This document shows, in pieces, positions 1 to 18,628 of a DNA stretch of 23,325 bases; the first letter of the stretch is position 1; each line of letters begins with the position of its first letter. This stretch comes from a virus. A program made the translations under genes and the position numbers. The stretch lies in the IMG/VR virus record IMGVR_UViG_3300008339_000501, positions 1-23,325 of that record; one strand, 5' to 3'. The notes below the pieces were generated by a model. It saw only the letters and a list, made by a program, of their open reading frames with translations. It did not search any database and was not told the origin of the DNA.

Positions 1-38
1 CCCAGCCCAGCCCAGCCCAGCCCAGCCCAGCCCAGCCC
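1..38. repeat. (CCCAG) tandem repeat at window edge
   Basis: Seven perfect 5-bp CCCAG units followed by CCC. The other strand reads CTGGG repeats, with G-runs that could form a G-quadruplex. It lies at the very edge, so it may be a genome terminus, the tail of a longer repeat, or an assembly artefact. Confidence 0.85.
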
Positions 39-49
39 CACGCCGCGTT

Positions 50-65
50 ATCAGTACGTACTGAT
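50..65. promoter_or_regulatory. Family A palindrome (exact)
   Basis: Exact ATCAGTACGTACTGAT. The dyad is perfect over 26 bp here (45-70), the longest form together with that at 2839-2864. No gene follows directly. Probably a binding site for a homodimeric DNA-binding protein (inference). Confidence 0.7.
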
Positions 66-118
66 AACGCCATTCTGACCAGTTCCGCGTGGTTGTTGGT
101 CATTGGACGTAGCGCGTT

Positions 119-134
119 ATCAGTACGTACTGAT
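119..134. promoter_or_regulatory. Family A palindrome (exact)
   Basis: Exact ATCAGTACGTACTGAT preceded by GCGTT, as at 45-49. The right flank (GGC) breaks the extended dyad. Second copy, 69 bp after the first. Confidence 0.7.
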
Positions 135-323
135 GGCTATTGTTCCGAAACACACAGATCGTTTGTTAACACGTGATTTTTCAAAACCATCAAAAAAACC
201 GCGTCAGATATATTTAATTTTGCACGCAGCACGCCACGCACCGACACGCTTGCAGCGCCCCAAAAGAGCGCAAACCCACCAGTTCCGGATGGCGGGTCGA
301 TTCTAAGTTATTGATTTTCGGTA

Positions 324-411
324 TTGTTCATAAAGTTCCTAATTGTTCAGATTGGAAAGTCTCGTAAGTCTTTGATTTTCGGTATTGTTCATATTGTACA
401 TAAAGTTCCGG
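324..411 (+). repeat. Left arm of 88-bp inverted repeat
   Basis: Read in reverse complement, this arm matches 612-699 at 80 of 88 positions with no gaps. It carries the motif TTGATTTTCGGTATTGTTCA (a copy begins just upstream at 311 and again at 372) and TAAAGTTCC (331 and 401), so there is also a direct repeat inside. Most mismatches cluster near the middle of the arm. Confidence 0.9.
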
Positions 412-611
412 CGAAATAAGCACACGCCCAAGCAAATCCGCACCCAAACTTTTTTAATTCCATATTATTTTTAAGGTTTTTTTAGTTTTATGTGATTCTG
501 CATTTGTTCAAGAACGTTACCTATCATTCAGATATGTTCAGATACGTTTTCCCACGCTCTCCTACTGCCATTTTCGTTTTTCCAAAAACGCTTTGGCGCG
601 TGCTTTTTTTC
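412..611. other. AT-rich spacer between inverted-repeat arms
   Basis: About 200 bp between the two arms. It includes strongly AT-rich stretches with runs of T at about 450-490 and again just before the right arm (603-610). Such an easily melted segment flanked by inverted repeats is compatible with a replication origin or an extruding cruciform, but no initiator sites of a known type are recognised. Confidence 0.4.
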
Positions 612-699
612 CCGGAACTTTATGAACATTATGAACAATACCGAAAATCAAGCACTTACAGCATTTTCCAATCTGAACAATTAGGAACTTTATGAACAA
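612..699 (-). repeat. Right arm of 88-bp inverted repeat
   Basis: Inverted partner of 324-411, same length, 80/88 identical. It starts CCGGAACTTTATG and ends TTTATGAACAA. An apparent ORF at 492-695 runs through this arm but has no ribosome-binding site and is not accepted as a gene. Confidence 0.9.
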
Positions 700-760
700 A
701 ACCGCCTGCCAAAGACTTACAGCCAATACCTCACCTAAACTCTCAACATCAGTTTACTAC

Positions 761-776
761 ATCAGTATCTACTGAT
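761..776. promoter_or_regulatory. Family A palindrome (variant centre)
   Basis: ATCAGTATCTACTGAT: both outer half-sites are intact and the centre differs. A degenerate half-copy (ATCAGTTTACTAC) lies just upstream at 748-760. Confidence 0.6.
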
Positions 777-911
777 AACGTTCCGCAATGTTCCGCCACG
801 CTCTGCCACGCCCACGCTTTCACGCAAACATTCCAACACATTTAACACATTAACAACCCCGCCGTCAGATAACGTTCTCTAACGTTCAACATTGTTCTCC
901 CACGCTATCCT

Positions 912-927
912 ATCAGTATGTACTGAT
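912..927. promoter_or_regulatory. Family A palindrome (variant centre)
   Basis: ATCAGTATGTACTGAT, one base off the consensus. Non-coding surroundings. Confidence 0.6.
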
Positions 928-1060
928 AATCCCCGGTCGGTGCCTAAAAACTCGCCAGTTCCGCGACGGTTCGGTGCGCCAGCAATTTTGCTGGGAAGCT
1001 TAGTTCGGTGCGCCAGCAATTTTGCTGGGAAGCTTAGTTCGGTGCGCCAGCGGCTGCGCC

Positions 1061-1076
1061 ATCAGTACGTACTGAT
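1061..1076. promoter_or_regulatory. Family A palindrome (exact, in tandem repeat)
   Basis: Exact ATCAGTACGTACTGAT inside the first 47-bp unit. Confidence 0.7.
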
Positions 1077-1107
1077 AAGCCTAGTTCGGTGCGCCAGCGG
1101 CTGCGCC

Positions 1108-1123
1108 ATCAGTACGTACTGAT
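1108..1123. promoter_or_regulatory. Family A palindrome (exact, in tandem repeat)
   Basis: Exact ATCAGTACGTACTGAT inside the second 47-bp unit, spaced 47 bp from the previous copy. Confidence 0.7.
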
Positions 1124-1214
1124 AAGCCTAGTTCGGTGCGCCATCCACAGCGTTAAACGCACGATTCCGGTCGGCCAATATGGCTAGTTGCTGCAAGCTA
1201 ATTGAAGGCTATCG

Positions 1215-1243
1215 TTGCTTTTCGTGGGCATGTCATGTATACT
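1215..1243 (+). promoter_or_regulatory. Candidate sigma70-type promoter
   Basis: TTGCTT (1215-1220), a 17-bp spacer, then TATACT (1238-1243). The expected start is near 1250. It faces the candidate structured RNA, and a family A palindrome lies about 30 bp downstream of the expected start, where a bound protein could block early elongation. Assigned from sequence match only. Confidence 0.5.
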
Positions 1244-1249
1244 GTTTTT

Positions 1250-1560
1250 ATTTTAAGTCGGTGGCGGACAAAGCCATCAGTACGTACTGATAGGAGGTTT
1301 TCACAAGGTTACGCATAGGTGATTCAACCGCTCGCTACGGTTAACAAGCGCGTACGACTGGAAGAGGTCGTCTGGTCGCAGCTAGGGGTGACGCCCGAGT
1401 GACTGCTGCGAATCTAGGGGGGAAGTGAGACGGTGCCCACGTAAGCGGCACTCCTGTATGGCTGGAGTATTAAATCCAGTGGAAGGTAAGAGGGGGCAAA
1501 TGCGGCCCGATAAGCACGTCCAGATGCGGCTACGGCTGCGCTGGTCACCTAGGTAAAAGA
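1250..1560 (+). ncRNA. Candidate structured non-coding RNA (unknown family)
   Basis: The segment follows a promoter-like sequence, lacks a gene, and is rich in nested complementary segments. TAGGTGA (1316-1322) pairs with TCACCTA (1545-1551) and would close a 236-nt domain. Inside are AACCG/CGGTT (1326-1330/1338-1342), ACGAC/GTCGT (1354-1358/1367-1371), TCGCAGC/GCTGCGA (1376-1382/1405-1411) and GTGCC/GGCAC (1433-1437/1447-1451). CTGGA/TCCAG (1462-1466/1475-1479) competes with ACTCC/GGAGT (1450-1454/1464-1468). I do not recognise tmRNA, RNase P, a riboswitch or an intron core. Large phage RNAs such as GOLLD or ROOL are a thought, not an identification. Ends are approximate. Confidence 0.45.
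1276..1291. promoter_or_regulatory. Family A palindrome (exact, downstream of promoter)
   Basis: Exact ATCAGTACGTACTGAT between the promoter at 1215-1243 and the stem-rich domain. It is followed by AGGAGG (1293-1298), but no start codon opens a plausible gene there. Confidence 0.65.
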
Positions 1561-1745
1561 ATAATAAGGTGGATGTAACATCACACTAATATAGGGAAAC
1601 TCGCCAATATAGACTGACAATCTATAGATGAACTACCCGCATGTCATAACATAATAAAACGCTCCTGCAAGTAACTGCCTTCACCGCTAGGCCGACGGAA
1701 CATATCGGCTGCATATAAACAAATCAGCACAAGACAATCATGCAC

Positions 1746-1801
1746 TCTGCGCGATTAATACCCGCGCAGACGGTAGCGGGCTGCGTTGTTAATACGACAA
1801 C
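1746..1801 (+). other. Overlapping alternative hairpins before the first gene
   Basis: TCTGCGCG (1746-1753) and CGCGCAGA (1763-1770) form a perfect 8-bp stem with a 9-nt loop. CCCGC (1761-1765) can instead pair with GCGGG (1776-1780), and CGCAG (1765-1769) with CTGCG (1781-1785). A further weak stem is GTTGTT/GACAAC (1785-1790/1796-1801). There is no T-run, so it is not a standard intrinsic terminator. Mutually exclusive stems could work as an attenuator-like switch (inference). Confidence 0.4.
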
Positions 1802-1841
1802 ACAGCGCCGGTGCCGACACGCACCATCACAACAATACATC

Positions 1842-1857
1842 ATCAGTACTTACTGAT
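1842..1857. promoter_or_regulatory. Family A palindrome upstream of the 1876 gene
   Basis: ATCAGTACTTACTGAT, one base off consensus, ending 18 bp before the start codon at 1876. The context (palindrome, AACTACAGGAGAC, then the start codon) is the same as at 2344-2379. Confidence 0.65.
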
Positions 1858-1875
1858 AACTACAGGAGACTAACA

Positions 1876-2037
1876 ATGTACGACGAAGAACACGACGAAC
1901 AGCCGCTTTGGTTAATCGAATACTATGGCGGTGCCACGGGCGCCGCGTGTTCGCATACCGTTCGCGGCACGTACGCCTACGCACTTGCGTGGGCCAAGCG
2001 TGTTATCAAGGGTGAGTTCTACATCACTCGTTATTAA
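1876..2037 (+). CDS. Small hypothetical protein (53 aa)
   Basis: The product is not recognised. The start is ATG 1876 because AGGAG lies at 1864-1868 with ideal spacing. An upstream in-frame start at 1786 would run through the palindrome and has no ribosome-binding site. The protein starts MYDEEHDEQPLWLIEYYGG, has an acidic N-terminus and is rich in aromatic residues. It is the first gene of the rightward cluster and shares its palindrome and leader layout with the gene at 2379. Confidence 0.7.
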   Translation: MYDEEHDEQPLWLIEYYGGATGAACSHTVRGTYAYALAWAKRVIKGEFYITRY

Positions 2038-2070
2038 TTGTTAACAACACAACACACAGGAGACACGACA

Positions 2071-2337
2071 ATGCAAGTTATTAATCTTCACGCCAACCCA
2101 CGCAACCCGCGAGTTCTGACCGAATTAGTTTTTAGGCTTACGCTGGCCGACGCGGAACGGCTTGCGGCTGCGCCGCTCGCACTCATCAAGGGCCAGAAGC
2201 AACTGACCCGCGAAGGCGGGGCTGCGTACTACCGGGGCGCTGGCATCTGGCGCTTCCAGAACTACGCATACGACGGCGCAGATACGCTCGCCGTGTTCCA
2301 GCGTGCCATTACTGAAATCTCACGTTCCACCATCTAA
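2071..2337 (+). CDS. Small hypothetical protein (88 aa)
   Basis: Unrecognised soluble protein with no membrane segment or clear motif. ATG 2071 is chosen over an upstream in-frame start because it follows CAGGAGACACGACA, the same leader as its neighbours. It lies 33 bp after the previous gene and has no palindrome of its own, so it is probably co-transcribed with the 1876 gene. Confidence 0.7.
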   Translation: MQVINLHANPRNPRVLTELVFRLTLADAERLAAAPLALIKGQKQLTREGGAAYYRGAGIWRFQNYAYDGADTLAVFQRAITEISRSTI

Positions 2338-2343
2338 TACATC

Positions 2344-2359
2344 ATCAGTACGTACTGAT
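2344..2359. promoter_or_regulatory. Family A palindrome upstream of the 2379 gene
   Basis: Exact ATCAGTACGTACTGAT in the gap between stop 2337 and ATG 2379, just before the ribosome-binding site. Confidence 0.7.
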
Positions 2360-2378
2360 AACTACAGGAGACAAGACA

Positions 2379-2804
2379 ATGACGACGACCAAAACCATGA
2401 CCAAGGTTGTGTACAACTGCACGTACGGCGGCTACACGCTCCCGCCCGAATGCGCGGAATTCTTGAAGTCGCACGGCCAATTGTTTGAGGCTGACGACGG
2501 GTACATCGGCGAAACGGTCTGGGACGCGCCGCGTTTCAACAAGACCACGGGCGAATGGACGGAGACGCATACGCGCTACGTCGCGCCTGCACGTCACAAC
2601 AAGTTTCTGGTTGCGTGGGTGGAATCGAATCCGCGTCGCAATCCCTACGCATCGAAGCTGACGGAAGACGAAGTGCCGCCTTCGATGTTGCACGACTTGA
2701 AGGTGATTGAGATTCCCGGCACCAAGTATTGGATCCGCGAGTACGACGGGGCCGAGACCGTCTACGCGATGGAGACGATGGAGTGGATTGACGCGGCGGA
2801 GTAA
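2379..2804 (+). CDS. Phage hypothetical protein, CYGGF-like family (141 aa)
   Basis: Starts at ATG 2379 after CAGGAGACAAGACA. The N-terminal YNCTYGGYTLPPE, the middle RHNKFLVAWVE and the C-terminal KVIEIPGTKYWIREYDG match the layout of an uncharacterised family common in tailed phages: an N-CYGGF-like strand, an R-x(3-4)-LV-x-WVE segment, and an IxEI...W/Y-I-x-EYDG-x-E end. No enzymatic motif is visible, and the function of that family is unknown to me. A family A palindrome sits in front. Confidence 0.75.
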   Translation: MTTTKTMTKVVYNCTYGGYTLPPECAEFLKSHGQLFEADDGYIGETVWDAPRFNKTTGEWTETHTRYVAPARHNKFLVAWVESNPRRNPYASKLTEDEVPPSMLHDLKVIEIPGTKYWIREYDGAETVYAMETMEWIDAAE

Positions 2805-2843
2805 CCCCGCCAGTTCCCGAGCGAGTGATGACAACAACGCGCT

Positions 2844-2859
2844 ATCAGTACGTACTGAT
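2844..2859. promoter_or_regulatory. Family A palindrome (26-bp extended dyad)
   Basis: Exact ATCAGTACGTACTGAT within a perfect 26-bp palindrome (2839-2864). It is paired with a family B site 12 bp downstream, upstream of the gene at 2908. Confidence 0.75.
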
Positions 2860-2871
2860 AGCGCAATCAAA

Positions 2872-2888
2872 TGACTCACAGTGAGTCA
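2872..2888. promoter_or_regulatory. Family B palindrome
   Basis: TGACTCACAGTGAGTCA, a perfect dyad around one central base, ending 19 bp before ATG 2908. First of five family B sites. Confidence 0.75.
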
Positions 2889-2907
2889 ATCAAAGGAGAC
2901 TAAGACA

Positions 2908-3195
2908 ATGCGTTTATTTATTGTTGAGTTGATTGAGTCCAAAAATGACGAATACACGTCAACCATAGTCGGAGTGTTCTCCGACTTGGAAGTGGCTAAG
3001 GCTGCTGGCCGTGCGCGGCGCGTGAAATTTCGCGACGACGTGATGCACATTCATCAGTCCACTCTGGACACAGAACAATTTGTGGGGTGGATGGGCAATC
3101 ACCCGATTGTGTTCTCGGAGTGCTTTTACGACTGCTGTTGGGATGAAAACAAAAGCTCGTCTGACGTTATGACAGACAGAACCAAAGGAGACTAA
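2908..3195 (+). CDS. Small hypothetical protein (95 aa)
   Basis: Not recognised. ATG 2908 follows AAAGGAGACTAAGACA (2892-2907). A GTG at 2881 lies inside the family B palindrome and is rejected. The N-terminus MRLFIVELIESKNDEYTS suggests a strand-rich fold, and a cysteine pair occurs near the C-terminus (FYDCCWDE). The last codons also form the ribosome-binding site of the next gene, so translation of the two is coupled. Confidence 0.7.
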   Translation: MRLFIVELIESKNDEYTSTIVGVFSDLEVAKAAGRARRVKFRDDVMHIHQSTLDTEQFVGWMGNHPIVFSECFYDCCWDENKSSSDVMTDRTKGD

Positions 3196-3199
3196 GACA

Positions 3200-3397
3200 A
3201 TGGCGAATGTTCATGTGCATTTTATGTACGACGGTGAGGAAATCGAATTGCAGTTCGTGGGGCTGAAAGACCACGAAGCCGAGGTGCTGCATTCGGTAAT
3301 CAAAAAGGCTGCTAACAACGGCCAGAACGAACACGTCCGGGGCTACGGATGGTGGAGTGACAATCAGGGCGTGATGGTTACCAAGGGGAAGAAGTAA
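3200..3397 (+). CDS. Small hypothetical protein (65 aa)
   Basis: Not recognised. ATG 3200 is preceded by a 16-bp leader identical to that of the 2908 gene (3184-3199). The gap to the previous stop is 4 bp. The protein starts with a strand-like stretch (ANVHVHFMYDGEEIELQFVG) followed by a helix. Its TAA shares a base with the next ATG (TAATG). Confidence 0.7.
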   Translation: MANVHVHFMYDGEEIELQFVGLKDHEAEVLHSVIKKAANNGQNEHVRGYGWWSDNQGVMVTKGKK

Positions 3398-3711
3398 TGA
3401 AACGCAGCAAGAGAATTCGGATTCACCAGAGCCTGCTCGGCATCTGGAAGTACGACCGACGATGGAAAGTGTGGGGGCCGCGTCAGTACACGGCCAAAAT
3501 GCACCGCGTATGGGCAGGCGCTTATGTCTGCCCGGATTGGGAACCGGAATGTGTAACTTGCCAATCGGCAAAACTTTGGAAGGAGGTGACGGAAAAAAAT
3601 ACTTCGATTACGTTTGATGAGTTCAATGCACAGGTAGATGCCGCATTGGAAATCGCGCAGGCCGAAGGGCAGGCGCAACGCATCAAAGACAGTCAAGCTG
3701 ACTCACTGTGA
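3397..3711 (+). CDS. Hypothetical protein with cysteine cluster (104 aa)
   Basis: Starts at ATG 3397 by a TAATG overlap. The N-terminal half is basic (KRSKRIRIHQSLL...KYDRRWKVW) and is followed by CPDWEPECVTC, a C-x6-C-x2-C arrangement that might bind a metal but lacks a clear fourth ligand. The C-terminal half is helical and acidic. The stop codon at 3709-3711 lies inside a family B palindrome, so the regulatory site overlaps the end of the gene. Confidence 0.65.
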   Translation: MKRSKRIRIHQSLLGIWKYDRRWKVWGPRQYTAKMHRVWAGAYVCPDWEPECVTCQSAKLWKEVTEKNTSITFDEFNAQVDAALEIAQAEGQAQRIKDSQADSL

Positions 3712-3715
3712 GTCA
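3699..3715. promoter_or_regulatory. Family B palindrome overlapping a stop codon
   Basis: TGACTCACTGTGAGTCA; the central base is T instead of A, so it equals the other copies read on the opposite strand. It overlaps the last codons of the 3397 gene and abuts a family A site with one base between. Confidence 0.75.
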
Positions 3716-3716
3716 T

Positions 3717-3732
3717 ACCAGTAAATACTGAT
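3717..3732. promoter_or_regulatory. Family A palindrome (variant), upstream of the MoxR gene
   Basis: ACCAGTAAATACTGAT. One base separates it from the family B site. The same B-T-A composite recurs at 7862-7895. Confidence 0.65.
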
Positions 3733-3752
3733 AACACACAAGGACTAATACA

Positions 3753-4910
3753 ATGTCGTTTAATAATATCATCACGATTACCCACGCCGACGCGGCGACC
3801 ATCATCAACGAACTGCGCGGTGAGACCATACTCATTCGCGGCGAGCCGGGGGTCGGCAAGACTGCAATGGGGGAAGCGTTGTCTGCGCAATTGGGGATGC
3901 CGTACGTGCATGTCAATTGCCCGAGCAAGGCCGACACGTCTGAGTTCGGGATGTTTGTGCCCAATCGCGAGACCGGCCAGTTGGAGTTCATGACCAATGG
4001 TCACTACGCATGGGACAAGCCCTGCATCTTCAATCTGGACGAGTACACCAAGGCGATGAATGCGATTAAGACCATGCTGCATGGTCTCGCGGAGTTCCCG
4101 CGTCGCATCGGTGACTTGCCTATCCATCGTGATTCCATTGTGTTCTTGACGGGTAACTTAGCGTCAGATGGTGTCGGTGACGTGCTGGCTGCGCATTCGC
4201 AGAATCGCATGTGCGAGTTGTACATGCTCAAGCCGCCGGCTGAGCCGTGGGTGCAGTTTGCCGCGACTCGCGGTATCAATCCGATTGTGTTGGCGTGGGT
4301 GACTCGCGAGCCGCAAGTGTTGGCATCGTATCTGGACGACGGCCAGCAGGATAATCCGTACATCTTCAACCCCAAGCGTGCCTCTTCATCTGTCAACAAA
4401 GCGTACGTCTCTCCGCGTTCGCTGTTCAAAGCCAGCGATACCGTGACTAAGTATCAGGAAGGCCGACTGACTGAGAATCAGATGATGGCGGTGCTTCAAG
4501 GCCAGATTGGCGGTGCGGCGATGCGTCAGTTGACTGCGTTTATTGCGGTTGCCAATCAGATTCCCACGCCGCGAGAGATTATCAACAACCCGACGAGTGC
4601 GCCTGTGCCGACTGCGCCGGGGGCTACCGTGATGGTGACGCTTGGTGCTATCCAGTGGCTGACATCAGTAGCGACTGATAAGACGCAGTTCGACAACCTG
4701 TCCGGTGCCGACGTGATGGGCCGGTGGTTCCAGTACATGCAGCGTCTGGAGAAGGAGTTGCAGGCGATGTTCGTTATCACGGCCAAGCGTGCGGGTGACC
4801 CGACCAATGGCGGCAGCGACGGTCGCAAGCTGTGGGACTTGGCGTGGAATAACAAAGCGTTCCAGCAGTGGGCGCTGTCCAACATGCACCTGTTCAAGGG
4901 GGCCGTGTAA
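3753..4910 (+). CDS. MoxR-type AAA+ ATPase (385 aa)
   Basis: A single AAA+ domain fills the N-terminal part: Walker A GEPGVGKT (residues 30-37), Walker B IFNLDEYTK with D96/E97, and sensor-1 TGN (133-135). MoxR ATPases work with VWA-domain partners to remodel target proteins, as in RavA-ViaA, NorQ-NorD and CobS-CobT (established). A VWA protein is encoded two genes downstream (6088), so this is probably the motor of a MoxR/VWA complex (inference). ATG 3753 follows AAGGACTAATACA. A family B plus family A composite lies just upstream, and a degenerate family A site lies inside the gene (4664-4679). Confidence 0.85.
   Translation: MSFNNIITITHADAATIINELRGETILIRGEPGVGKTAMGEALSAQLGMPYVHVNCPSKADTSEFGMFVPNRETGQLEFMTNGHYAWDKPCIFNLDEYTKAMNAIKTMLHGLAEFPRRIGDLPIHRDSIVFLTGNLASDGVGDVLAAHSQNRMCELYMLKPPAEPWVQFAATRGINPIVLAWVTREPQVLASYLDDGQQDNPYIFNPKRASSSVNKAYVSPRSLFKASDTVTKYQEGRLTENQMMAVLQGQIGGAAMRQLTAFIAVANQIPTPREIINNPTSAPVPTAPGATVMVTLGAIQWLTSVATDKTQFDNLSGADVMGRWFQYMQRLEKELQAMFVITAKRAGDPTNGGSDGRKLWDLAWNNKAFQQWALSNMHLFKGAV
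4664..4679. promoter_or_regulatory. Degenerate family A palindrome inside the MoxR gene
   Basis: ATCAGTAGCGACTGAT within coding sequence (reads TSVATD). Both outer halves are intact but the centre differs. It may be a weak site or a chance match. Confidence 0.35.
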
Positions 4911-5074
4911 TGCGGCCGTCCCGTAAAGAACGACGTGCGTTCAACCTTGCACACAAGTACAAGGAACAGTTACTCAGATTACGTGGACAATTGGCTCACA
5001 GTGAGTCAAAGGGGGAATACGACCATAAAACTTTGCCCGTTGAACTGACCATTACATCTATTAAATCTATCTAA
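4910..5074 (+). CDS. Small basic hypothetical protein (54 aa)
   Basis: Starts by TAATG overlap with the MoxR gene at 4910. It is very basic at the N-terminus (MRPSRKERRAFNLAHKYKEQ), probably helical, with no known domain. A family B-like palindrome lies inside it and encodes the AHSES part, so the gene may have grown across a regulatory site. It is translationally coupled to the MoxR gene. Confidence 0.6.
   Translation: MRPSRKERRAFNLAHKYKEQLLRLRGQLAHSESKGEYDHKTLPVELTITSIKSI
4992..5008. promoter_or_regulatory. Family B palindrome (one mismatch) upstream of the DUF3150-like gene
   Basis: TGGCTCACAGTGAGTCA, one base off the perfect dyad, inside the 54-aa gene and about 80 bp before ATG 5091. 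There is no family A partner here. Confidence 0.55.
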
Positions 5075-5090
5075 GTAAGAGGACATGACA

Positions 5091-6008
5091 ATGAACAATG
5101 ACAACATGAACATGAACAATCTGGTCTCCGACGAAACCATCTCCAATCTGGACGGCACCAATGGTTTCACCATTATCGAGTTGTCGATTGGTACGTGGGA
5201 CGGCAAGCGTTCCGACAAGCGCATCAACGATCAGGTGCAGAACACGTCTGGCGTTAAGACCAGCAAGAAGATTGGTGATTATAAAAAGTTCTTGCTGCCC
5301 GACTGCGAGGCGCATACCGAAATCATCAGCTTTGCCGGTCAGGTGCGTACGCGCAACTACCTGATGACGGTGCCGTGGTCTGACAATGGCCGACGCATGA
5401 TGAGCAACGAGTTGCTGGATACTTACGTGCCGGAAGTGGAAGGCTCCCAGCGCGAGTTCTGGAGCATGGTCGATAACTTCGTTGAGAATCAGTACGAGAT
5501 TGAGGTCACCAAAGCGGCGTTCAATCTCGGGCCGTTGTTCTTGCGTGAGGATTATCCGACCAAGGAGCAACTCCGCGCCAAGTACAAGTTCAACTTCTCG
5601 CCTGAGCCGATGCCCCAAGTTGGCGACTTCCGCATTGACGCGATGAACCGTGGGCGCGAGCAACTGATTAAGATGTTTGAGCGTAACGCGAACGCACGGT
5701 TGCAGAACGCAATGCGTGACGTATGGGAGCGGTTCCACGACGTGTTACTCAGCATGAGCACCAAGCTGGCAGACAAGGAAGACGGTACGCATCAGATTTG
5801 GCGCGACTCTTTGCTGCGCAACCCGATGGAGCTTGTTGACTTGCTCCAGTATCTCAACATCACCAAAGACCCCAAGCTCGACGAGTTGGCGACTGACTTG
5901 CGCCGCGTCCTGATGGGTACTGACAACAAAGAACTGCGTAAAGACGATGACCATCGTCGGGAGGTGAAGAGCAAGATTGACAGCTTGCTGTCCAAGTTCG
6001 ATTTCTAA
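5091..6008 (+). CDS. DUF3150-like phage protein (305 aa)
   Basis: Near the N-terminus, FTIIELSIGTWDGKRSDKR and the following lysine-rich part resemble DUF3150 proteins, whose N-terminus has an L-x-I-x-x-W-x-G-R/K segment followed by a helical region. DUF3150 genes are, as I recall, found between MoxR ATPase and VWA/CobT-like genes in phages and bacteria, as here. The rest is mostly helical and charged, ending RREVKSKIDSLLSKFDF. ATG 5091 is preferred to ATG 5085 because AGAGGA is 7 bp before it. The role is unknown; an adaptor of the ATPase/VWA pair is a guess. Confidence 0.6.
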   Translation: MNNDNMNMNNLVSDETISNLDGTNGFTIIELSIGTWDGKRSDKRINDQVQNTSGVKTSKKIGDYKKFLLPDCEAHTEIISFAGQVRTRNYLMTVPWSDNGRRMMSNELLDTYVPEVEGSQREFWSMVDNFVENQYEIEVTKAAFNLGPLFLREDYPTKEQLRAKYKFNFSPEPMPQVGDFRIDAMNRGREQLIKMFERNANARLQNAMRDVWERFHDVLLSMSTKLADKEDGTHQIWRDSLLRNPMELVDLLQYLNITKDPKLDELATDLRRVLMGTDNKELRKDDDHRREVKSKIDSLLSKFDF

Positions 6009-6023
6009 TCAGTACATACTGAT
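6008..6023. promoter_or_regulatory. Family A palindrome upstream of the VWA gene
   Basis: ATCAGTACATACTGAT, one base off consensus. It begins on the last base of the TAA stop codon (6006-6008) of the DUF3150-like gene. Confidence 0.7.
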
Positions 6024-6026
6024 AAC

Positions 6027-6050
6027 GAGTCACATATGGACGTGTGACTC
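6027..6050. repeat. Inverted repeat sharing a family B half-site
   Basis: GAGTCACA (6027-6034), 8-nt loop, TGTGACTC (6043-6050). The right arm overlaps the family B palindrome at 6045-6061, giving three TGACTC-type half-sites in 35 bp. Confidence 0.7.
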
Positions 6051-6061
6051 ACAGTGAGTCA
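6045..6061. promoter_or_regulatory. Family B palindrome upstream of the VWA gene
   Basis: TGACTCACAGTGAGTCA, perfect. It ends 26 bp before ATG 6088 and is paired with the family A site at 6008-6023. Confidence 0.75.
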
Positions 6062-6087
6062 ATTCAATATATAAGAGGTAAGACACA

Positions 6088-7533
6088 ATGATTAACTATA
6101 CCGCAGAGCAGAAGTTAGAGCGCGTGACTGCGACTATCCTGCGTACCAAAGAGTTGGCGTTCTATTGGGCGCTATTGGTTATCGGCAAGCGCGAAGTTGT
6201 CGATGATGTTAAGACGGCATGTACCAATGGCCGTGACGAGAAGTACGGTCGTGAGTTTGTGTTAGCAATGAGTGAGGAAGAGTTGCTGTACACACGTATG
6301 CACGAGCAGGAGCACAAGTTGCTGCGTCATATCTCTGTGTGGAAGCACTTGTGGGATAAGGACGCGGCTACTGCTAACAAAGCTGCCGACTACGTAGTCA
6401 ATGCGCGGCTTGAGAAGATGCGTGAGGATTACCCAACGTTAATGCAGATTATGCGTATGCCCGAGTGGAAGCACGGGCCAGACATTGGCAAGCCGATGGG
6501 CCTGTATGACCCGCAGTATATCGGTATGGATGTCGGTCAGGTCTTCGACTTGCTCGCAGACAAGACTGAGCCAGACGAGCCGGGGGATGACCCGAGCGAC
6601 GAGCCAGAGGATGGCGACGGGCCGACGGGTGATGGGCCGGAAGGTAATGAGCCAGACGACGGTGACGGGCCGGAAGGTGATGGGCCGACGGGCGACGGGC
6701 CAGAGGGTGATGAGCCAGACGACGGTGATGGCAAGGGCAAGGGCAAGGAGAAGGGCGGCAAGCCGGGGCGCGGGCCGGGAACGGGCGAGGCGGGCGACCA
6801 TCCATCGTTCGATGAACACGACACCAGCGGTGCCAATGACCTGACCAAGGATGAGGAGGACGAGTTAGCGCGGGAGATTGACCGCGCTGTGCGTCAGGGC
6901 ATCTACATCGCCGGCAAGATGGGCATCAACGTGGGTGCGGAAATCACGCAGTTGACCGAGGTTACCGTCGATTGGCGCGAGGTCATGCGCGAGTTCGTCA
7001 AAGCATCTACGCATGGCGGCGACGAGGTAACGTGGCGGAAGTTCAACCGCAAGTTAATCACCAGCGATATTTACGCGCCGACTACGGAGAACATTCGTGC
7101 CGGTAGTATCGCAGTGATGAACGATATGTCCGGGTCTATCACGCAGGGCATGATTAACGCATGTATCTCTAACGTGGTAAGTATCTGTCAGGAAGTCAAG
7201 CCCGAGAAAGTTGTGCTTGGCTATTGGGATACGTCACTGCGTCGCGTGGAAATCTACGACGACTCCAACTACGAGAGCTTGCTGGAGACGACCAAGCCGT
7301 GTGGTGGTGGGGGCACGGACGTGCGTTGCGTTGCCAACTACTTGCGTGGCGATACTACTGATGATAGGCTTCCATCCGCTCCTGCTGTCGATTGCGTCAT
7401 TGTACTGACTGACGGTATCTTTTCCGAAGGGCAAGGGGATTGGGGTGACTTGCCTGTGTTGTGGTGCGTTATTGACCCGTATCACCGCTCGTTTGTGCCG
7501 GTTACCGGCGTTGTTGTTCCTGTCAAATTATAA
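6088..7533 (+). CDS. HExxH metallopeptidase-like / VWA domain protein (481 aa)
   Basis: Residues ~1-150 resemble the metallopeptidase-like N-domain of DUF2201 proteins, with HEQEH at 72-76 (HExxH) in the segment LYTRMHEQEHKLLRH. Residues ~158-245 are a low-complexity acidic linker of Gly-Asp-Glu-Pro repeats ending in a Lys/Gly-rich patch. The C-terminal ~200 residues are VWA-like, with the MIDAS pieces DMSGS (346-350), GGTD (T410) and TDG (441-443). VWA proteins act as adaptors of MoxR ATPases, and one is encoded at 3753. Whether the HExxH site is active is unknown. ATG 6088 follows AAGAGGTAAGACACA. Two palindromes precede it. Confidence 0.8.
   Translation: MINYTAEQKLERVTATILRTKELAFYWALLVIGKREVVDDVKTACTNGRDEKYGREFVLAMSEEELLYTRMHEQEHKLLRHISVWKHLWDKDAATANKAADYVVNARLEKMREDYPTLMQIMRMPEWKHGPDIGKPMGLYDPQYIGMDVGQVFDLLADKTEPDEPGDDPSDEPEDGDGPTGDGPEGNEPDDGDGPEGDGPTGDGPEGDEPDDGDGKGKGKEKGGKPGRGPGTGEAGDHPSFDEHDTSGANDLTKDEEDELAREIDRAVRQGIYIAGKMGINVGAEITQLTEVTVDWREVMREFVKASTHGGDEVTWRKFNRKLITSDIYAPTTENIRAGSIAVMNDMSGSITQGMINACISNVVSICQEVKPEKVVLGYWDTSLRRVEIYDDSNYESLLETTKPCGGGGTDVRCVANYLRGDTTDDRLPSAPAVDCVIVLTDGIFSEGQGDWGDLPVLWCVIDPYHRSFVPVTGVVVPVKL
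6600..6760 (+). repeat. In-frame degenerate tandem repeats (acidic linker)
   Basis: Imperfect repeats built from GATGGGCCG/GACGGGCC and GAGCCAGACGACGGTGA-type units encode the Asp/Gly/Pro/Glu linker of the VWA protein. The motif GAGCCAGACGACGGTGA occurs at about 6649 and again at about 6712. Such repeats change length easily by slippage. Confidence 0.75.
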
Positions 7534-7542
7534 GAGGTAAGT

Positions 7543-7686
7543 ATGGACATGTTCAAAGTTGTGGATGAGTTGATGGCTAAGATGTTCGGCGAGATGCCGA
7601 CAAAGCCGGAAGAGAAAGAGGCCATTGGTATTACTGACTTGGCTAAGTTTTTAACTGCAATTGAGGAGGAAGATGAAGATGAGTGA
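7543..7686 (+). CDS. Small acidic hypothetical protein (47 aa)
   Basis: ATG 7543 follows TAAGAGGTAAGT, the same ribosome-binding site as the VWA gene, 9 bp after its stop. The product starts MDMFKVVDELMAKMFGEM and ends in a run of acidic residues. Its last codons supply the GAGGAGG ribosome-binding site of the next gene, and the two overlap by 8 bp. No known domain; it may be a small partner of the module or of the next gene. Confidence 0.6.
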   Translation: MDMFKVVDELMAKMFGEMPTKPEEKEAIGITDLAKFLTAIEEEDEDE

Positions 7687-7864
7687 GTATCTTGATGAGT
7701 TCGGTCGTCCTAAACGTATCAACGTTAGTTTTAGTCCCAGTGTGGCTAAGAAGTTGGACGAGATTAAGTTGGTGTTGTATGACGCCACAGGGTTGGAGAT
7801 GAGCTACAGCAAGATTGTTGAATACTTGTTGAGCAGATACGCCAAAGATAGAAACGTTCTTTGA
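7679..7864 (+). CDS. Ribbon-helix-helix-like small DNA-binding protein (61 aa)
   Basis: RPKRINVSFSPSVAKKLDEI gives a short strand (RINVSFS) followed by a helix. After a turn (ATGLEM), SYSKIVEYLLSRYAKD gives a second helix. This is the strand-helix-helix order and length of Arc/MetJ/CopG-type repressors, which bind palindromic DNA as dimers (established for the family). ATG 7679 is chosen for its spacing from GAGGAGG. The stop at 7862-7864 overlaps a family B palindrome that abuts a family A one, so it is the best candidate in the window to bind one of the palindromes, possibly also regulating itself (inference). Confidence 0.6.
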   Translation: MSEYLDEFGRPKRINVSFSPSVAKKLDEIKLVLYDATGLEMSYSKIVEYLLSRYAKDRNVL

Positions 7865-7878
7865 CTCACAGTGAGTCA
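7862..7878. promoter_or_regulatory. Family B palindrome next to the RHH gene
   Basis: TGACTCACAGTGAGTCA, perfect. It overlaps the stop codon of the RHH-like gene; the family A variant follows after one base. Confidence 0.75.
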
Positions 7879-7879
7879 T

Positions 7880-7895
7880 ACCAGTAAATACTGAT
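7880..7895. promoter_or_regulatory. Family A palindrome (variant), last of the series
   Basis: ACCAGTAAATACTGAT, identical to 3717-3732 including its position relative to the family B site. It lies 24 bp before ATG 7920. I found no clear family A or B site beyond this point. Confidence 0.65.
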
Positions 7896-7919
7896 ACAAC
7901 ATATATAAGGACACAAGCA

Positions 7920-8783
7920 ATGAACATACAGAATCCGAATCAGCACACTGTTCACGACGACATCATGGCCGTGCTTAAGAAAGTCACGCGCAAGGTTGCC
8001 CGCATGGACATGGTGTTTGAGGTTCTCAGCGCAGAACAGGTCGCTGTTTACATCAACGGCGAGAAAGTTGGCGGTGTTAAGCACCGCTACGTGGGGCAGA
8101 AGTATCAGTTGGCGGTGTCGTCCCCCAACATCCACAAAGAACGCACGCGGTATGGTCAGCGTAACGACGAGGCGCTCACCGAGATGCCGAATCGGGCAGC
8201 GGCGATTGCTATCGAACATTGGGTGCCGAGAACGTATGAGCATATCAAACGTCAGGTGCTTAACGATTCCAATGGCGCGTATACGCAAGCCAAGTACAAG
8301 GAGGAATCCCGAATCGACGCGGTGTACAACAAGATAGTGCGTAGCAGGAAGTTGGCTAACGCCCCTGCTTATCACACTGAAGCGTACGCAATGCACGATC
8401 TGTTCCGTGATTTGCTTATTAATTCGTCATCTGTTGACTATGTTAAGAATTACTTCAGCAATCACTGTAACGTGGCCGACTACCTTGAGGATATTGCACG
8501 GGTAGAGAAGGCGCGGGCTATCTGCGAGCGGGTTAGGAATGAGGGAGTCATCCTGCGGTTCAAGCCGCGCACCGACACTATCGAGGTGTATGACATCACC
8601 AACTGGGAGGCGGTGCAGATGCCGACGGAGTTGCGCTCGGTGGAGTTGTTACCGCCGCAGATGATGCAGTGTTACGTCATGCTTAACATTGCAGAGGAAG
8701 GCGTGCCCCTGTGGGGTATGGGCCTGCGCGTCAATGAACATGTGTATTACTTGGAAGAAGCCGCTGCTCGCGGGGGAGTGTAA
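7920..8783 (+). CDS. Hypothetical phage protein (287 aa)
   Basis: Not recognised. ATG 7920 follows ATAAGGACACAAGCA. The N-terminal half is basic with strand-like segments (VAVYINGEKVGGVKHRY) and the middle is helical. No nucleotide-binding or catalytic motif is seen, nor a signal peptide or membrane segment. It is the first gene after the last palindrome pair and probably heads the next set of small genes. Confidence 0.75.
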   Translation: MNIQNPNQHTVHDDIMAVLKKVTRKVARMDMVFEVLSAEQVAVYINGEKVGGVKHRYVGQKYQLAVSSPNIHKERTRYGQRNDEALTEMPNRAAAIAIEHWVPRTYEHIKRQVLNDSNGAYTQAKYKEESRIDAVYNKIVRSRKLANAPAYHTEAYAMHDLFRDLLINSSSVDYVKNYFSNHCNVADYLEDIARVEKARAICERVRNEGVILRFKPRTDTIEVYDITNWEAVQMPTELRSVELLPPQMMQCYVMLNIAEEGVPLWGMGLRVNEHVYYLEEAAARGGV

Positions 8784-8787: not shown

Positions 8788-8955
8788 ATGCGTATTAAGA
8801 AGAAGACTGAATATGTTCTGCTTGGTGAACATCTCGCTAGGTTACAGGACATCGCCAAAGCATTAGTTGAAGACAGGGCTGCGCCTATCGAGTGCTATGC
8901 CTTGGCTTGCGAGATTCGTTTCTTACTCAAACAAGTGAGGGAATCCAATGGATAA
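8788..8955 (+). CDS. Small hypothetical protein (55 aa)
   Basis: ATG 8788 lies 4 bp after the previous stop; GGGGGAG upstream (8773-8779) is the ribosome-binding site. The product starts MRIKKKTEYVLLGEHLARLQ and is helical. It overlaps the next gene by 8 bp. Function unknown. Confidence 0.65.
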   Translation: MRIKKKTEYVLLGEHLARLQDIAKALVEDRAAPIECYALACEIRFLLKQVRESNG

Positions 8956-9127
8956 TGTACTGCGCATCAAGGTCAAAGATGTTTATGGTAACCGTTTGGT
9001 TTATCCACAATGCGAGAAATCCATTGTGTTTGCGCACATCTCTGGCAGAAAGACGCTGACTGATAACGTCATTGCGTCTTTGAAATCCATTGGCTACGTG
9101 TTTGAAGTGGTAGGAGAATCACTATGA
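8948..9127 (+). CDS. Small hypothetical protein (59 aa)
   Basis: ATG 8948 overlaps the end of the previous gene; GAGGGAATCCA provides a ribosome-binding site. The product (MDNVLRIKVKDVYGNRLVYP...) looks strand-rich and soluble. It overlaps the next gene by ATGA (9124-9127). Function unknown. Confidence 0.65.
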   Translation: MDNVLRIKVKDVYGNRLVYPQCEKSIVFAHISGRKTLTDNVIASLKSIGYVFEVVGESL

Positions 9128-9240
9128 GGTGGGAAGAGTTTGTATTCTGGGTGGTTATGAGTTTCCTAATTGGATACTTATTAGACGGTGCCGGAATTGA
9201 AATTGCTAAATTATGGGAATTGGGGGCGTTATGGCCGTGA
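9124..9240 (+). CDS. Small membrane protein (38 aa)
   Basis: Starts by ATGA overlap at 9124, with GGAGAA as ribosome-binding site. Residues ~6-20 (FVFWVVMSFLIGYLL) form one hydrophobic segment long enough to span or sit in the inner membrane, with an acidic residue pair before it. The role is unknown; a lysis or membrane-targeting function is possible but not supported by context. It overlaps the nuclease gene. Confidence 0.55.
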   Translation: MRWEEFVFWVVMSFLIGYLLDGAGIEIAKLWELGALWP

Positions 9241-9572
9241 CTCCCGAAGGGAAAGTTAAATACAAATTGGTCAAGTTCCTCAACTCTTTGGAACCCAGAC
9301 CGTACATGTTCTTTCCAGTTCCGGGCGGCTATGGTCGCTCTGGAATCCCCGACATTGTTGGCTGCTGGAAGGGCAGGATGTTTGCCATTGAGTGCAAAGC
9401 GCCGGGGAAGTTTGGGAACACCACCACCTTACAACGCCGGGAGTTGCAGAGGATTAACGAGGCAGGAGGTGTCGCGTTTGTCTATGACGGGTCAATACTG
9501 GATGAAGACATGGAAGCAATACTTAGCGGTACGCCCGCATGGCATCTAGAATTAACTAAGGAGGAAAAATGA
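9231..9572 (+). CDS. VRR-NUC family nuclease (113 aa)
   Basis: Stand-alone VRR-NUC domain of the PD-(D/E)XK superfamily: GIPDIVG (D41), FAIECKAPG (E54-x-K56) and a following LQ (67-68), the usual order and length for phage members. These proteins are nucleases that can cut branched DNA. ATG 9231 gives the normal N-terminus (MAVTPEGKVK); a start at 9213 is possible but has no better ribosome-binding site. It overlaps both neighbours. Probably part of phage DNA repair or recombination. Confidence 0.8.
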   Translation: MAVTPEGKVKYKLVKFLNSLEPRPYMFFPVPGGYGRSGIPDIVGCWKGRMFAIECKAPGKFGNTTTLQRRELQRINEAGGVAFVYDGSILDEDMEAILSGTPAWHLELTKEEK

Positions 9573-9757
9573 AACCCAATCTTAAGCTGACTGATTTGCG
9601 GCAGTTTCTACTGCGAAAGGAAGCTCCCCCGGTGTGGGGGGTAGAAGACTTGGACGAGAAGCGCCAAAGGGCGTTGAAAATTTTAGGAGATCGCTGGGTG
9701 TTACATCCTAATAACGCACCAAAGAAAGGTAACTACGATGGCTGGCCGAAAAAGTGA
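9569..9757 (+). CDS. Small hypothetical protein (62 aa)
   Basis: ATG 9569 overlaps the VRR-NUC stop (ATGA) after AAGGAGGAAAA, a strong ribosome-binding site. The product has LRQFLLRKEAPPVWGVEDLD and a basic C-terminus. No known domain. It overlaps the next gene by 20 bp. Confidence 0.65.
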   Translation: MKPNLKLTDLRQFLLRKEAPPVWGVEDLDEKRQRALKILGDRWVLHPNNAPKKGNYDGWPKK

Positions 9758-9935
9758 TTTGAACGATGCGGAAATTAGAACTGCTAGTGCTTACGAGTCT
9801 GGGGAAATCACTAGCACAGGACTTTACTTTGCCGCTAAAATTAACGGTGTGCGAGTAGAGATAGATGGGCCGTCGCGAGAAGCGTTGGCCTTGGTGGAAG
9901 CGCTCTGCGCTGCTGGACAAACTAAAGAGGACTAA
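9738..9935 (+). CDS. Small hypothetical protein (65 aa)
   Basis: ATG 9738 after AAAGGTAACTACG, overlapping the previous gene by 20 bp. It begins MAGRKSDLNDAEIRTASAYE and has a strand-turn-helix pattern (NGVRVEIDGPSREALALVEA). Function unknown. Confidence 0.6.
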   Translation: MAGRKSDLNDAEIRTASAYESGEITSTGLYFAAKINGVRVEIDGPSREALALVEALCAAGQTKED

Positions 9936-9939
9936 TACG

Positions 9940-10320
9940 ATGGGAACACAAGCAATGAACGGATTGAATCAGATTACTGAACAAATGGTGTTAAAAGATT
10001 TGCCAATGCCTAAAGCAAAACGGACGATGAACAGATTGTCAGCGACACAATCGTTCAAACTTTATGATTGGCTGAAGAACAACGCTGAGAGTTTGCAAAA
10101 ACAATCGCTTAACCGTACGCAAATTGCAAACAAAGCCACCGTTGCACTTGGGTTTCCAGTGGTCAACAGTATGATTGTAACTGCGGAAAGGGCGATTGAA
10201 ATCCGAGTTAGCTTTGAGACTTCCCCTAATCCTGTCAATGTGCTAACGCTTCAGCGCAAGATAGAAGAATTGACTAAACGTATCGAGACGTTGGAGCAGA
10301 TTGTTAAGGAATTCGTGTAG
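9940..10320 (+). CDS. Hypothetical protein with C-terminal coiled coil (126 aa)
   Basis: ATG 9940 is chosen because AAGAGGACTAATACG precedes it; a longer frame upstream overlaps the 9738 gene. The middle part (LNRTQIANKATVALGFPVVN) could be a helix-turn-helix-like segment, and the C-terminus (LQRKIEELTKRIETLEQIV) has a heptad pattern that suggests an oligomerising coiled coil. A DNA-binding role is possible but not shown. Confidence 0.65.
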   Translation: MGTQAMNGLNQITEQMVLKDLPMPKAKRTMNRLSATQSFKLYDWLKNNAESLQKQSLNRTQIANKATVALGFPVVNSMIVTAERAIEIRVSFETSPNPVNVLTLQRKIEELTKRIETLEQIVKEFV

Positions 10321-10327
10321 TCAAGTA

Positions 10328-10364
10328 TTGCGACTCCCGATGAGGGGCTATATACTAGCCTCTC
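10328..10364 (+). promoter_or_regulatory. Promoter with embedded operator-like dyad
   Basis: TTGCGA (10328-10333), 17-bp spacer, TATACT (10351-10356). A dyad GAGGGGCTA/TAGCCTCTC (10342-10350/10356-10364, one mismatched pair) surrounds the -10 element, so a protein bound there would block polymerase. It precedes only the 66-aa gene, which ends at a strong terminator. Confidence 0.6.
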
Positions 10365-10389
10365 ACTTAACCAATCTAAGGAGTTTAAT

Positions 10390-10590
10390 ATGACTGAACG
10401 TAAGCCCCGCGCCAAGAAGCTGTACATCGTTAGCATGAACGGCGAAACCCATTACGTTAATGCTATCAGCAAGACTGCCGCTCTTAACTTCGCGGTGTCT
10501 GAGACTGTTACTGTGCGTGCTGCAAGCCTGTCGGATATGGCCGAAGTTGCTGCTGCTGCCGGTAAGGGCGCTCAGATTCACGAAGCCTAA
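10390..10590 (+). CDS. Small phage protein, monocistronic (66 aa)
   Basis: ATG 10390 with AAGGAG 6 bp upstream. The basic N-terminus (TERKPRAKKLYIVSMNGE) is followed by an Ala-rich helical C-terminus. It fits a common type of short strand-helix-strand phage protein of unknown role. It has its own promoter-like sequence and an intrinsic terminator immediately after, so it is probably expressed strongly and independently of its neighbours (inference). Confidence 0.75.
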   Translation: MTERKPRAKKLYIVSMNGETHYVNAISKTAALNFAVSETVTVRAASLSDMAEVAAAAGKGAQIHEA

Positions 10591-10604
10591 GCAGTTGACA
10601 CAAG

Positions 10605-10631
10605 AGCCGGGGCATCCCCCCGGCTTTTTTT
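10605..10631 (+). terminator. Intrinsic terminator after the 66-aa gene
   Basis: AGCCGGGG/CCCCGGCT stem (10605-10612/10618-10625) with a 5-nt loop, followed by seven Ts (10625-10631). The ribosome-binding site of the next gene begins right after the T-run, so the DUF3310 gene depends on read-through or another promoter. Confidence 0.9.
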
Positions 10632-10642
10632 CGGAGAACAAA

Positions 10643-10891
10643 GTGGACAAAGTAAATAAAGAAGATGTAGACCACCCGGCTCATTACACAGCGGGTGCAA
10701 TTGAATGTATTGAGGCTATCGCGGCGGCTACCGTTGGCCTTGAAGGTATCGAAGCAGTATGTACTGCTAACGTTATTAAATACTTGTGGCGCTGGAAGAT
10801 GAAAGGCGGCGTCACTGATTTAGAAAAAGCGAAGTGGTATTTGGAAAAACTTATTAAGGAGAAAGTTAAAGATGCAAAAACTATTCGGTAA
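10643..10891 (+). CDS. DUF3310 protein, GTG start (82 aa)
   Basis: HPAHYTAGAIECIEAI (residues 11-26) and KYLWRWKMKGGVTDLEKAKWYL are the conserved ends of DUF3310, a small phage family often called a nucleotide kinase-like protein without proven activity. GTG 10643 is chosen because GGAG lies 6 bp upstream and the family begins just before HPxHY. The first codons (DKVNKED) recur upstream of the gene at 17090. The gene overlaps the next by 20 bp. Confidence 0.85.
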   Translation: MDKVNKEDVDHPAHYTAGAIECIEAIAAATVGLEGIEAVCTANVIKYLWRWKMKGGVTDLEKAKWYLEKLIKEKVKDAKTIR

Positions 10892-11114
10892 GCTAATCTC
10901 CGCAGAAACTAAGATTATCCTTGACCATGTAGAGAAAAATCCAGAGAAGTTTTTGGATGGGATTGGGCCAGATGCTCTGTCGTTTAATCCTTGGTCATTA
11001 TTAGTAGATAATGGAGTGTTTCCTTGGCACGAAAGAATTTTAATACACTTAGCCATTAGGAAAGTAAGAATGGCGGCTACTAAAAGAAAAGTTTACGCAC
11101 TGCTAATTGATTAG
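10872..11114 (+). CDS. Hypothetical protein (80 aa)
   Basis: ATG 10872 overlaps the DUF3310 gene by 20 bp; AAGGAGAAAGTTAAAG provides the ribosome-binding site. The product (MQKLFGKLISAETKIILDHVE...) is mostly helical with a basic C-terminus. Not recognised. Confidence 0.65.
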   Translation: MQKLFGKLISAETKIILDHVEKNPEKFLDGIGPDALSFNPWSLLVDNGVFPWHERILIHLAIRKVRMAATKRKVYALLID

Positions 11115-11123
11115 GAATACACA

Positions 11124-11489
11124 ATGCCAGCACACCACAAGACATCCGAGACTGGGGTATCCCACAAATCTGACCCGCACGCAGGCCCGTCCGTGGGTGA
11201 CCGTTCTTTCGAGTATTACTTCACCACCCCGATGGCGTTCCATGAAGCGATGCAGCGGGCAAAGGCGCTGGAAGCGAAGGGGATGTATCGCCGTGCATGG
11301 CGCGTCAGATTAAACCTTGACGGTGAACAGCCCAAGGTGGCACCGCCTCGACCGGAAGCGGTTCCGGCGGAATTGACCGAAGCGGAGAAGAAAGAATTGA
11401 GGAGAAAGAAAAAGAGGCTAAACGAACTGCGGTTAAAGGCAGACAAATTGGCCGAAGAATTAGCGGAGCATGAAGATGAGGAAGGTTAA
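11124..11489 (+). CDS. PerC-like protein (121 aa)
   Basis: ATG 11124 after TTAGGAATACACA. Residues ~40-60 (AMQRAKALEAKGMYRRAWRV) resemble the core of the PerC family (LE-x-KG-x-YRRAA-x-R), found in enterobacterial regulators and many phages. The C-terminal third is a highly charged Glu/Lys helix. A regulatory role is plausible but rests on this one motif. It overlaps the next gene. Confidence 0.5.
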   Translation: MPAHHKTSETGVSHKSDPHAGPSVGDRSFEYYFTTPMAFHEAMQRAKALEAKGMYRRAWRVRLNLDGEQPKVAPPRPEAVPAELTEAEKKELRRKKKRLNELRLKADKLAEELAEHEDEEG

Positions 11490-14299: not shown

Positions 14300-14300
14300 C

Positions 14301-15472: not shown

Positions 15473-15477
15473 GACCA

Positions 15478-18385: not shown

Positions 18386-18628
18386 ATGGATAACCGAGGC
18401 TACAGCAAAAGAATTATTGATGCTAATGAAACGGCATCGTCTGATAGCCTCGGTGTCCTTTTAGGCCGGTATTGCATTAGTAGGGACATCCCCGTATCCG
18501 ATATTACGGGGTATTTTGGGGTATCCCGAATGGCTATATACAATTGGTTTACTGGCAAATCGGAACCGAGGAAGTACCACAGAGATAAAATAGAGACGAT
18601 ATTGCGTAGTGGGGGATGGTCAGTATAA
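18386..18628 (+). CDS. HTH DNA-binding protein, Cro/XRE-like (80 aa)
   Basis: Residues ~34-56 (DIPVSDITGYFGVSRMAIYN) form a helix-turn-helix, followed by WFTGKSEPRKYHRDKIETIL, the typical end of XRE/Cro-type domains. Starts at ATG 18386, one base after the previous stop, with no strong ribosome-binding site. Possibly a regulator of the palindrome sites or of its own unit. The position inside the replication block is unusual for a lysogeny repressor. Confidence 0.7.
   Translation: MDNRGYSKRIIDANETASSDSLGVLLGRYCISRDIPVSDITGYFGVSRMAIYNWFTGKSEPRKYHRDKIETILRSGGWSV

Follow-up and report, generated by a model that had tools for sequence, protein, structure and literature searches.

Dispersed palindromic sites of lineage-specific sequence in the early region of phages with a MoxR/vWA gene triad

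Most known examples of dispersed repressor sites come from temperate phages and plasmids, and phage P1 provides an example in which one repressor, C1, acts at many scattered sites. Here we describe a 16-bp palindrome, ATCAGTACGTACTGAT (the A site), that is dispersed over the left 8 kb of a 23,325-base IMG/VR virus record (IMGVR_UViG_3300008339_000501; the whole record is referred to as the window), together with the corresponding palindromes of related phages. The array shares with P1 the many scattered sites, but P1, a temperate phage-plasmid, has asymmetric operators.

Two other systems come closest. In Cluster A mycobacteriophages (L5, Bxb1, TipsytheTRex), many copies of one site, the stoperator, occupy promoter regions and short intergenic gaps, and the stoperator sequence diverges between related phages; L5 stoperators are asymmetric sites of 13 bp whose orientation follows transcription and to which a monomer binds, and the phages are temperate (PMC9283540, PMC6550527). 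The array described here likewise consists of many copies of one site, many of them in short intergenic gaps, with a sequence that diverges among relatives. However, its sites are perfect dyads of 14–18 bp that lack the asymmetry of the 13-bp L5 sites, and no integrase was found in the relatives. In the IncP plasmid RK2, the global repressors KorB and KorA bind palindromic sites, where OA is TGTTTAGCTAAACA and OB contains TTTAGCGGCTAAA (PMC11790492, PMC4889941). Palindromic operators at many places are a feature of both RK2 and the present phages, but the latter yielded no KorB or ParB_N domain, and their sites are lineage-specific in sequence and lie close to gene starts. Because the asymmetry of the stoperators is missing and no KorB/ParB protein was found, we file the array as a variant of dispersed operator arrays that belongs to neither system. 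A literature search returned no description of such an array in this phage family. The preliminary description of the window had likened the array to those of L5 and P1; the analogy holds for a dispersed, operator-like array near ribosome-binding sites (RBSs) with stoperator-like placement, whereas its lysogeny side is weakened by the lack of an integrase in ten near-complete relatives.

The A array in the window

Seven exact and seven variant copies of the A site are present in the left 8 kb (Table 1), as had been described, and two of the exact copies indeed form the cores of perfect 26-bp palindromes. At up to three mismatches the window holds 17 matches to ATCAGTACGTACTGAT, against 0.03 expected by chance, and in 60 shuffled windows a perfect 16-bp palindrome never reached more than one copy. 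Seven of the window sites are perfect dyads. A second contig (L004), 100% identical to window positions 9–2811, extends the genome leftward and adds two exact copies, one just left of the window edge (L004 2805) and one about 800 bases further left (L004 3623). The latter sits between divergent early and late genes, with TerL and portal beyond. The array thus totals about 16 copies of one mirror-symmetric word ahead of early genes. Window positions 1–40 are a CCCAG tandem repeat at the contig end, through which L004 reads, and the window edge is probably the place where the assembly broke.

The range originally given, 50–7895, stands at its right end for the main sites, but exact copies continue leftward on L004, and three weaker matches lie beyond 7895 (10753–10768, 11720–11735 and 13618–13633), each with three mismatches and all in coding sequence. 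The match at 10753 has perfectly palindromic edges and a symmetric double change. The A dyad class is absent from the repeated dyads of a contig (G020) that overlaps the right end of the window and runs into late genes. In other viral contigs, exact 16-mer copies were taken as chance, being single throughout: one common copy within overlapping reading frames of a distant relative (L002/L003/L007/L010), one at the end of an apparent terminase frame (L009) and one in a 437-kb contig (L005). An Rfam search gave no match, and a tRNA search found none.

Although window positions 1876–8000 are 94% coding, six of the seven sites there (counting 1842, immediately ahead of the first gene) lie outside genes, one of them overlapping a gene end by one base, and those at 1842, 2344, 3717 and 7880 end 18–24 nt ahead of a start codon. 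Placement in non-coding sequence or ahead of an RBS, as first proposed, therefore applies to most sites, but not to the copy at 4664, which is wholly inside the MoxR gene, or strictly to that at 6008, which overlaps the last base of a gene.

Recurrent positions and changing sequences in related phages

Viral contigs were searched with the vWA protein, which yielded 25 loci, and dyads were found by a search for repeated inverted words whose sequence was not preset. A dispersed dyad is present in nearly all 25 loci. The classes in relatives include GTTAGGGA-NN, GTTAGTCC-NN (in full GTTAGTCC-NN-GGACTAAC), GTAGGGGT-N, CCTAACA-N (in full CCTAACA-N-TGTTAGG), GTTATGCC-NN, GTTATAAC-NN and TGTAGTGA-NN. 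Relatives bearing the triad of MoxR ATPase, third protein and vWA protein contain 6–28 dispersed dyads each, of lineage-specific sequence, and three shuffled sequences per genome gave 0–1 dyad matches each. The comparison was then extended to the complete records of seventeen contigs, either related or serving as controls. In genomes of 61–65 kb the sites are confined to one early stretch of roughly 3–18 kb, from the divergent leader through the triad and generally ending before PolA (G001 19703–27401, G002 8904–18759, G015 8296–26381). The sites of G003, G015 and others are likewise dyads. Sites are spread over most of the sequence examined in two named phages, Planktothrix phage Pag-Yong1 (GGTTCAG-N, 28 sites) and Rhizobium phage RHph_TM3_14A (GTTACCT-NNNN, 25 sites).

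The placement seen in the window recurs. In 15 genomes with coding fractions mostly of 88–96%, 129 of 201 sites are intergenic, and 75 of these 129 have a start codon no more than 60 nt away, the commonest gap being 15–24 nt; genes of unannotated contigs came from a simple caller, so that single site-to-start distances carry some error. Pag-Yong1, with annotated genes, shows the same clustering, mostly at 17–28 nt. MoxR is preceded by a site at a distance of no more than 100 nt in 14 of 18 genomes; for the third gene this holds in 10 of 17, and the chance level per upstream slot is about 0.1–0.2 in most genomes. A search of related genomes for conserved positions of the motif had been suggested; sites do occur at corresponding positions, but their sequences differ, which was not foreseen. 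Such equally scattered, differently spelled words point to a fast-evolving switch protein as the candidate reader, which would act on many genes through one kind of site.

The exchange of one class for another is seen between two strains (L021 and L022) that are 98.7% identical over 13 kb. At two orthologous positions (L021 8495/9623, L022 5001/6134) GTTAGTCCACGGACTAAC stands in one where the other has GTTATGCCACGGCATAAC, that is, GTTAGTCC- versus GTTATGCC-type dyads. Both half-sites change together while the flanks are almost unchanged, and each genome holds both classes, a pattern that would be hard to explain without proteins that read the dyads. Copies of the 8-bp half-site GTTATAAC follow one another at 10-bp steps in G003, equal to one helical turn, and so on one face of the DNA. 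The stacked arrays lie at L164 14091–14118 and 14658–14685 (G003 54091 and 54658), the second with one degenerate half-site.

The triad is common to the array-bearing phages, but to judge from the genomes compared it is probably not sufficient for an array, because N4-like phages have MoxR/vWA homologs without one. No array was present in the stretches read of the N4-like phages G7C and Presley, both with these homologs, of Roseobacter phage CRP-7 or of the primase relative Rollin. A scan of bacterial genomes with the vWA alignment gave one phage-like contig, in an uncultured bacterial assembly (L216, 2950–8243), where a further dispersed dyad, GGGTAC-NN-GTACCC, occurs seven times, and a Spiribacter chromosome locus (L217), where MoxR/vWA are present and the array is absent.

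No Phage_integrase or Resolvase domain was detected in ten near-complete relatives and the two named phages, with positive controls; the window phage is only partly covered, and the result leaves room for extrachromosomal prophages. The AAA_31 ParA domain was not found in the relatives, and no KorB/ParB_N match (PF08535, PF02195) was obtained in 14 records, again with positive controls. The KorA domain (PF16509) gave no match, though its control also lacked one above the cut-off. With integrase, serine recombinase, ParA, KorB and ParB_N all undetected in the relatives, neither a lysogenic nor a plasmid-type role appears to have support, although absence from incomplete records proves little; the missing integrase also makes a lysogeny repressor doubtful as the binder.

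Proposed function of the array and candidate binding proteins

We propose that the palindromes are probably operators of a phage-encoded dimeric DNA-binding protein that acts on early transcription, with a stoperator-like placement. One protein would occupy the approximately 16 sites, from the immediate-early leader through the early genes as far as the triad. Most gene-region sites lie between a stop codon and the next RBS, within a co-directional cluster and without local sigma-70 promoters, where the bound protein would most likely check read-through transcription as a roadblock or in a stoperator-like manner; at the leader sites it would check initiation. In the course of infection, the early region would consequently be switched off or kept at a fixed level. 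A check on elongation is the most economical reading because no sigma-70 element is found near the sites and most gene-region sites are inside the co-directional cluster. The sites, their dyad symmetry, confinement and placement, their return at like positions in relatives despite sequence turnover, and the missing RNA-pairing constraint are observations, from which we infer (i) that the binder is encoded by the phage, (ii) that it represses rather than activates and (iii) that it blocks elongation.

The main rival is that each palindrome is a phage-specific early or middle promoter, or activator site, with the transcript starting just downstream and a short leader before the RBS. The commonest site-to-start gap of 15–24 nt, an A bias at positions 1–3 downstream of the sites and the lack of enrichment for a sigma-70 −10/−35 pattern upstream of them all speak for such promoters. 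Nine copies, however, are in the long non-coding leader rather than beside a gene, the sites are symmetric and hence directionless, and some are inside genes; a search for a T7-type RNA polymerase was empty, but its control was silent. Taken together, we regard promoters as rather unlikely. RNA hairpins ahead of the RBS, controlling translation or mRNA processing, would account for sites that adjoin an RBS, with a Shine–Dalgarno-like sequence in 49 of 64 site-to-start gaps, and RNA folding gives −4.1 kcal/mol for the A site and −17.2 for its 26-bp form. Yet the pairing is not kept: where one side alone departs from symmetry, the RNA pair is lost in 33 cases and becomes G-U in 5, no more than the 6.3 expected at random, with a single compensatory change. 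Within a genome it is the exact sequence that is kept rather than the structure, and many sites are in the non-coding leader, which together make hairpins improbable.

Sites for replication, partition or DNA organization of a ParB/KorB-like kind, with regulation secondary, might be suspected from the non-coding leader, with its several A sites and 130-nt inverted repeat pair, and from the likewise palindromic KorB operators of RK2. The records searched contain no ParB_N, KorB or ParA domain, however, and the sites follow gene starts, not a single origin, so that this explanation is a distinctly poor prospect. Repeats without regulatory function, mobile in the manner of repetitive extragenic palindromes or copied convergently, would fit the duplication of a cassette of A site and second palindrome (described below; 3699 and 7862, 93% alike over 40 nt) and the 47-bp tandem units at 1025–1118, but recurrent positions with unrelated sequences and symmetric class swaps need selection on a protein–DNA match, and we consider such repeats very improbable.

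For operators of a dimeric protein, two candidate binders can be named. The first is an extremely variable protein of 160–210 residues, encoded by the early gene that comes first behind the divergent leader. In the window phage this gene is L004 2900–3517 on the minus strand, with sites on both sides, and its product has no detectable relative beyond its own phage. A strong intrinsic terminator follows the first early gene. The sequence groups of its product track the motif groups GTTAxxxx-NN, CTAACx-N and TAxxGTC-N, a correspondence in which core-gene ancestry is a confounder, and its homology across groups is an argument from synteny rather than a sequence result. Structure modeling of the G010 homolog gave a helical N-domain, predicted with confidence, for which no fold match was clear. 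The gene is apparently duplicated in G012 (L175 8836–9333 and 9855–10319), G016 (L192 5020–5601 and 6174–6746) and L012 (4721–5248 and 6251–6802), and in G012 a GGGAGGC-NNNN-GCCTCCC hairpin follows each copy.

The second candidate is the small ribbon-helix-helix (RHH)-like protein at 7679, which follows vWA in the window, G015, G016 and G025; the small gene that follows vWA bears a site at its stop codon, or close to it, in many genomes. The model of residues encoded by 7679–7864 (predicted local distance difference test score 84) has two helices and a short strand and weakly resembles RHH regulators, the best structure matches including TraM, Reg576, MazE, NikA and TCP domains with Z scores of only 3.4–5.2; no Pfam RHH match was found. 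Neither candidate's sequence matched the PDB. Both this protein and the helix-turn-helix (HTH) protein at 18386 had been named earlier as possible binders. The former stays a candidate, for this sub-group only, whereas the latter was rejected as a universal binder: its recognition helix hardly varies among phages whose site sequences differ, and it was not found in the near-complete G001, G003 and G015.

Several points weigh against operators of a phage-encoded repressor. Some sites are within genes (4664, and many in G002 and RHph_TM3_14A); the near-constant distance to the start codon would also fit an RNA-level element or a promoter with a very short leader; and, with no sign of lysogeny, a standing repressor has no obvious prophage role. 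Neither candidate binder belongs to a recognized DNA-binding family, and for the first-early-gene product Pfam and PHROG gave no match and Foldseek and VIA-align no clear PDB fold match.

A wider proposal, which we offer tentatively, is that the first-early-gene product represents a new hypervariable DNA-binding family that runs the early region of widespread, apparently non-lysogenic phages via dispersed dyads, its specificity being repeatedly rewritten as all sites change in concert, with two operator classes operating side by side in some genomes. Arrays are carried by a whole phage family without detected lysogeny genes; at least 12 site sequences, each specific to a lineage, occupy recurrent positions, and near-identical strains provide one natural class swap. 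This raises the questions of how specificity can change jointly in a regulator and more than ten sites, and of the role that a global operator array has in a phage that seemingly does not lysogenize; the named members RHph_TM3_14A and Pag-Yong1 make experiments feasible.

The second palindrome and other window features

A second palindrome, B (TGACTCACWGTGAGTCA), occurs in four exact copies and one with a single mismatch between 2872 and 7878, and twice covers a stop codon. The cassette of B followed by A is duplicated (3699/3717 and 7862/7880). B could be a second operator or an mRNA hairpin, since its sole variant keeps RNA pairing through a G-U pair.

Table 1. Coordinates of palindromic sites and genes in the window
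Position	Strand	Feature	Basis
50..65		A site, exact; core of 26-bp palindrome 45–70	
119..134		A site, exact	
761..776		A site, center changed to TC	
912..927		A site, center changed to TG	
1061..1076		A site, exact; within 47-bp tandem repeat	
1108..1123		A site, exact; within second copy of 47-bp repeat	
1276..1291		A site, exact; about 30 bp downstream of possible −10 box TATACT	
1842..1857		A site, center CT; 18 nt ahead of start codon of gene 1876	
2344..2359		A site, exact; 19 nt ahead of start codon 2379	
2844..2859		A site, exact; core of 26-bp palindrome 2839–2864; 48 nt ahead of gene 2908	
3717..3732		A variant ACCAGTAAATACTGAT; 20 nt ahead of MoxR start; adjoins B site 3699	
4664..4679		A-like variant within MoxR coding sequence	
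6008..6023		A site, center CA; between third triad gene and vWA gene	
7880..7895		A variant after RHH-like gene; 24 nt ahead of gene 7920; adjoins B site 7862	
2872..2888		B palindrome TGACTCACAGTGAGTCA	
3699..3715		B palindrome TGACTCACTGTGAGTCA; covers stop codon of gene 3397–3711	
4992..5008		B palindrome, one mismatch; inside gene 4910–5074	
6045..6061		B palindrome	
7862..7878		B palindrome; covers stop codon of RHH-like gene	
3753..4910	+	MoxR-type AAA ATPase, triad gene 1	PF00004 1.5e-6; homologs in 19 loci
5085..6008	+	Third triad protein, function unassigned	
6088..7533	+	DUF2201 metallopeptidase-like/vWA protein, triad gene	PF13203 1.5e-16, PF09967
7679..7864	+	RHH-like small protein, candidate site binder for this sub-group	
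18386..18628	+	HTH-like protein, poor binder candidate	helix comparison among phages

Structured RNA in the non-coding stretch 1292–1590 was rejected (z −0.77). The possible −10 box TATACT (1238–1243), with a weak −35, was spotted by eye and missed by the promoter search. The inverted repeat arms of the leader, at 304–433 and 590–719, are 84% complementary over 130 nt and non-coding, and constitute a possible replication origin or large hairpin.

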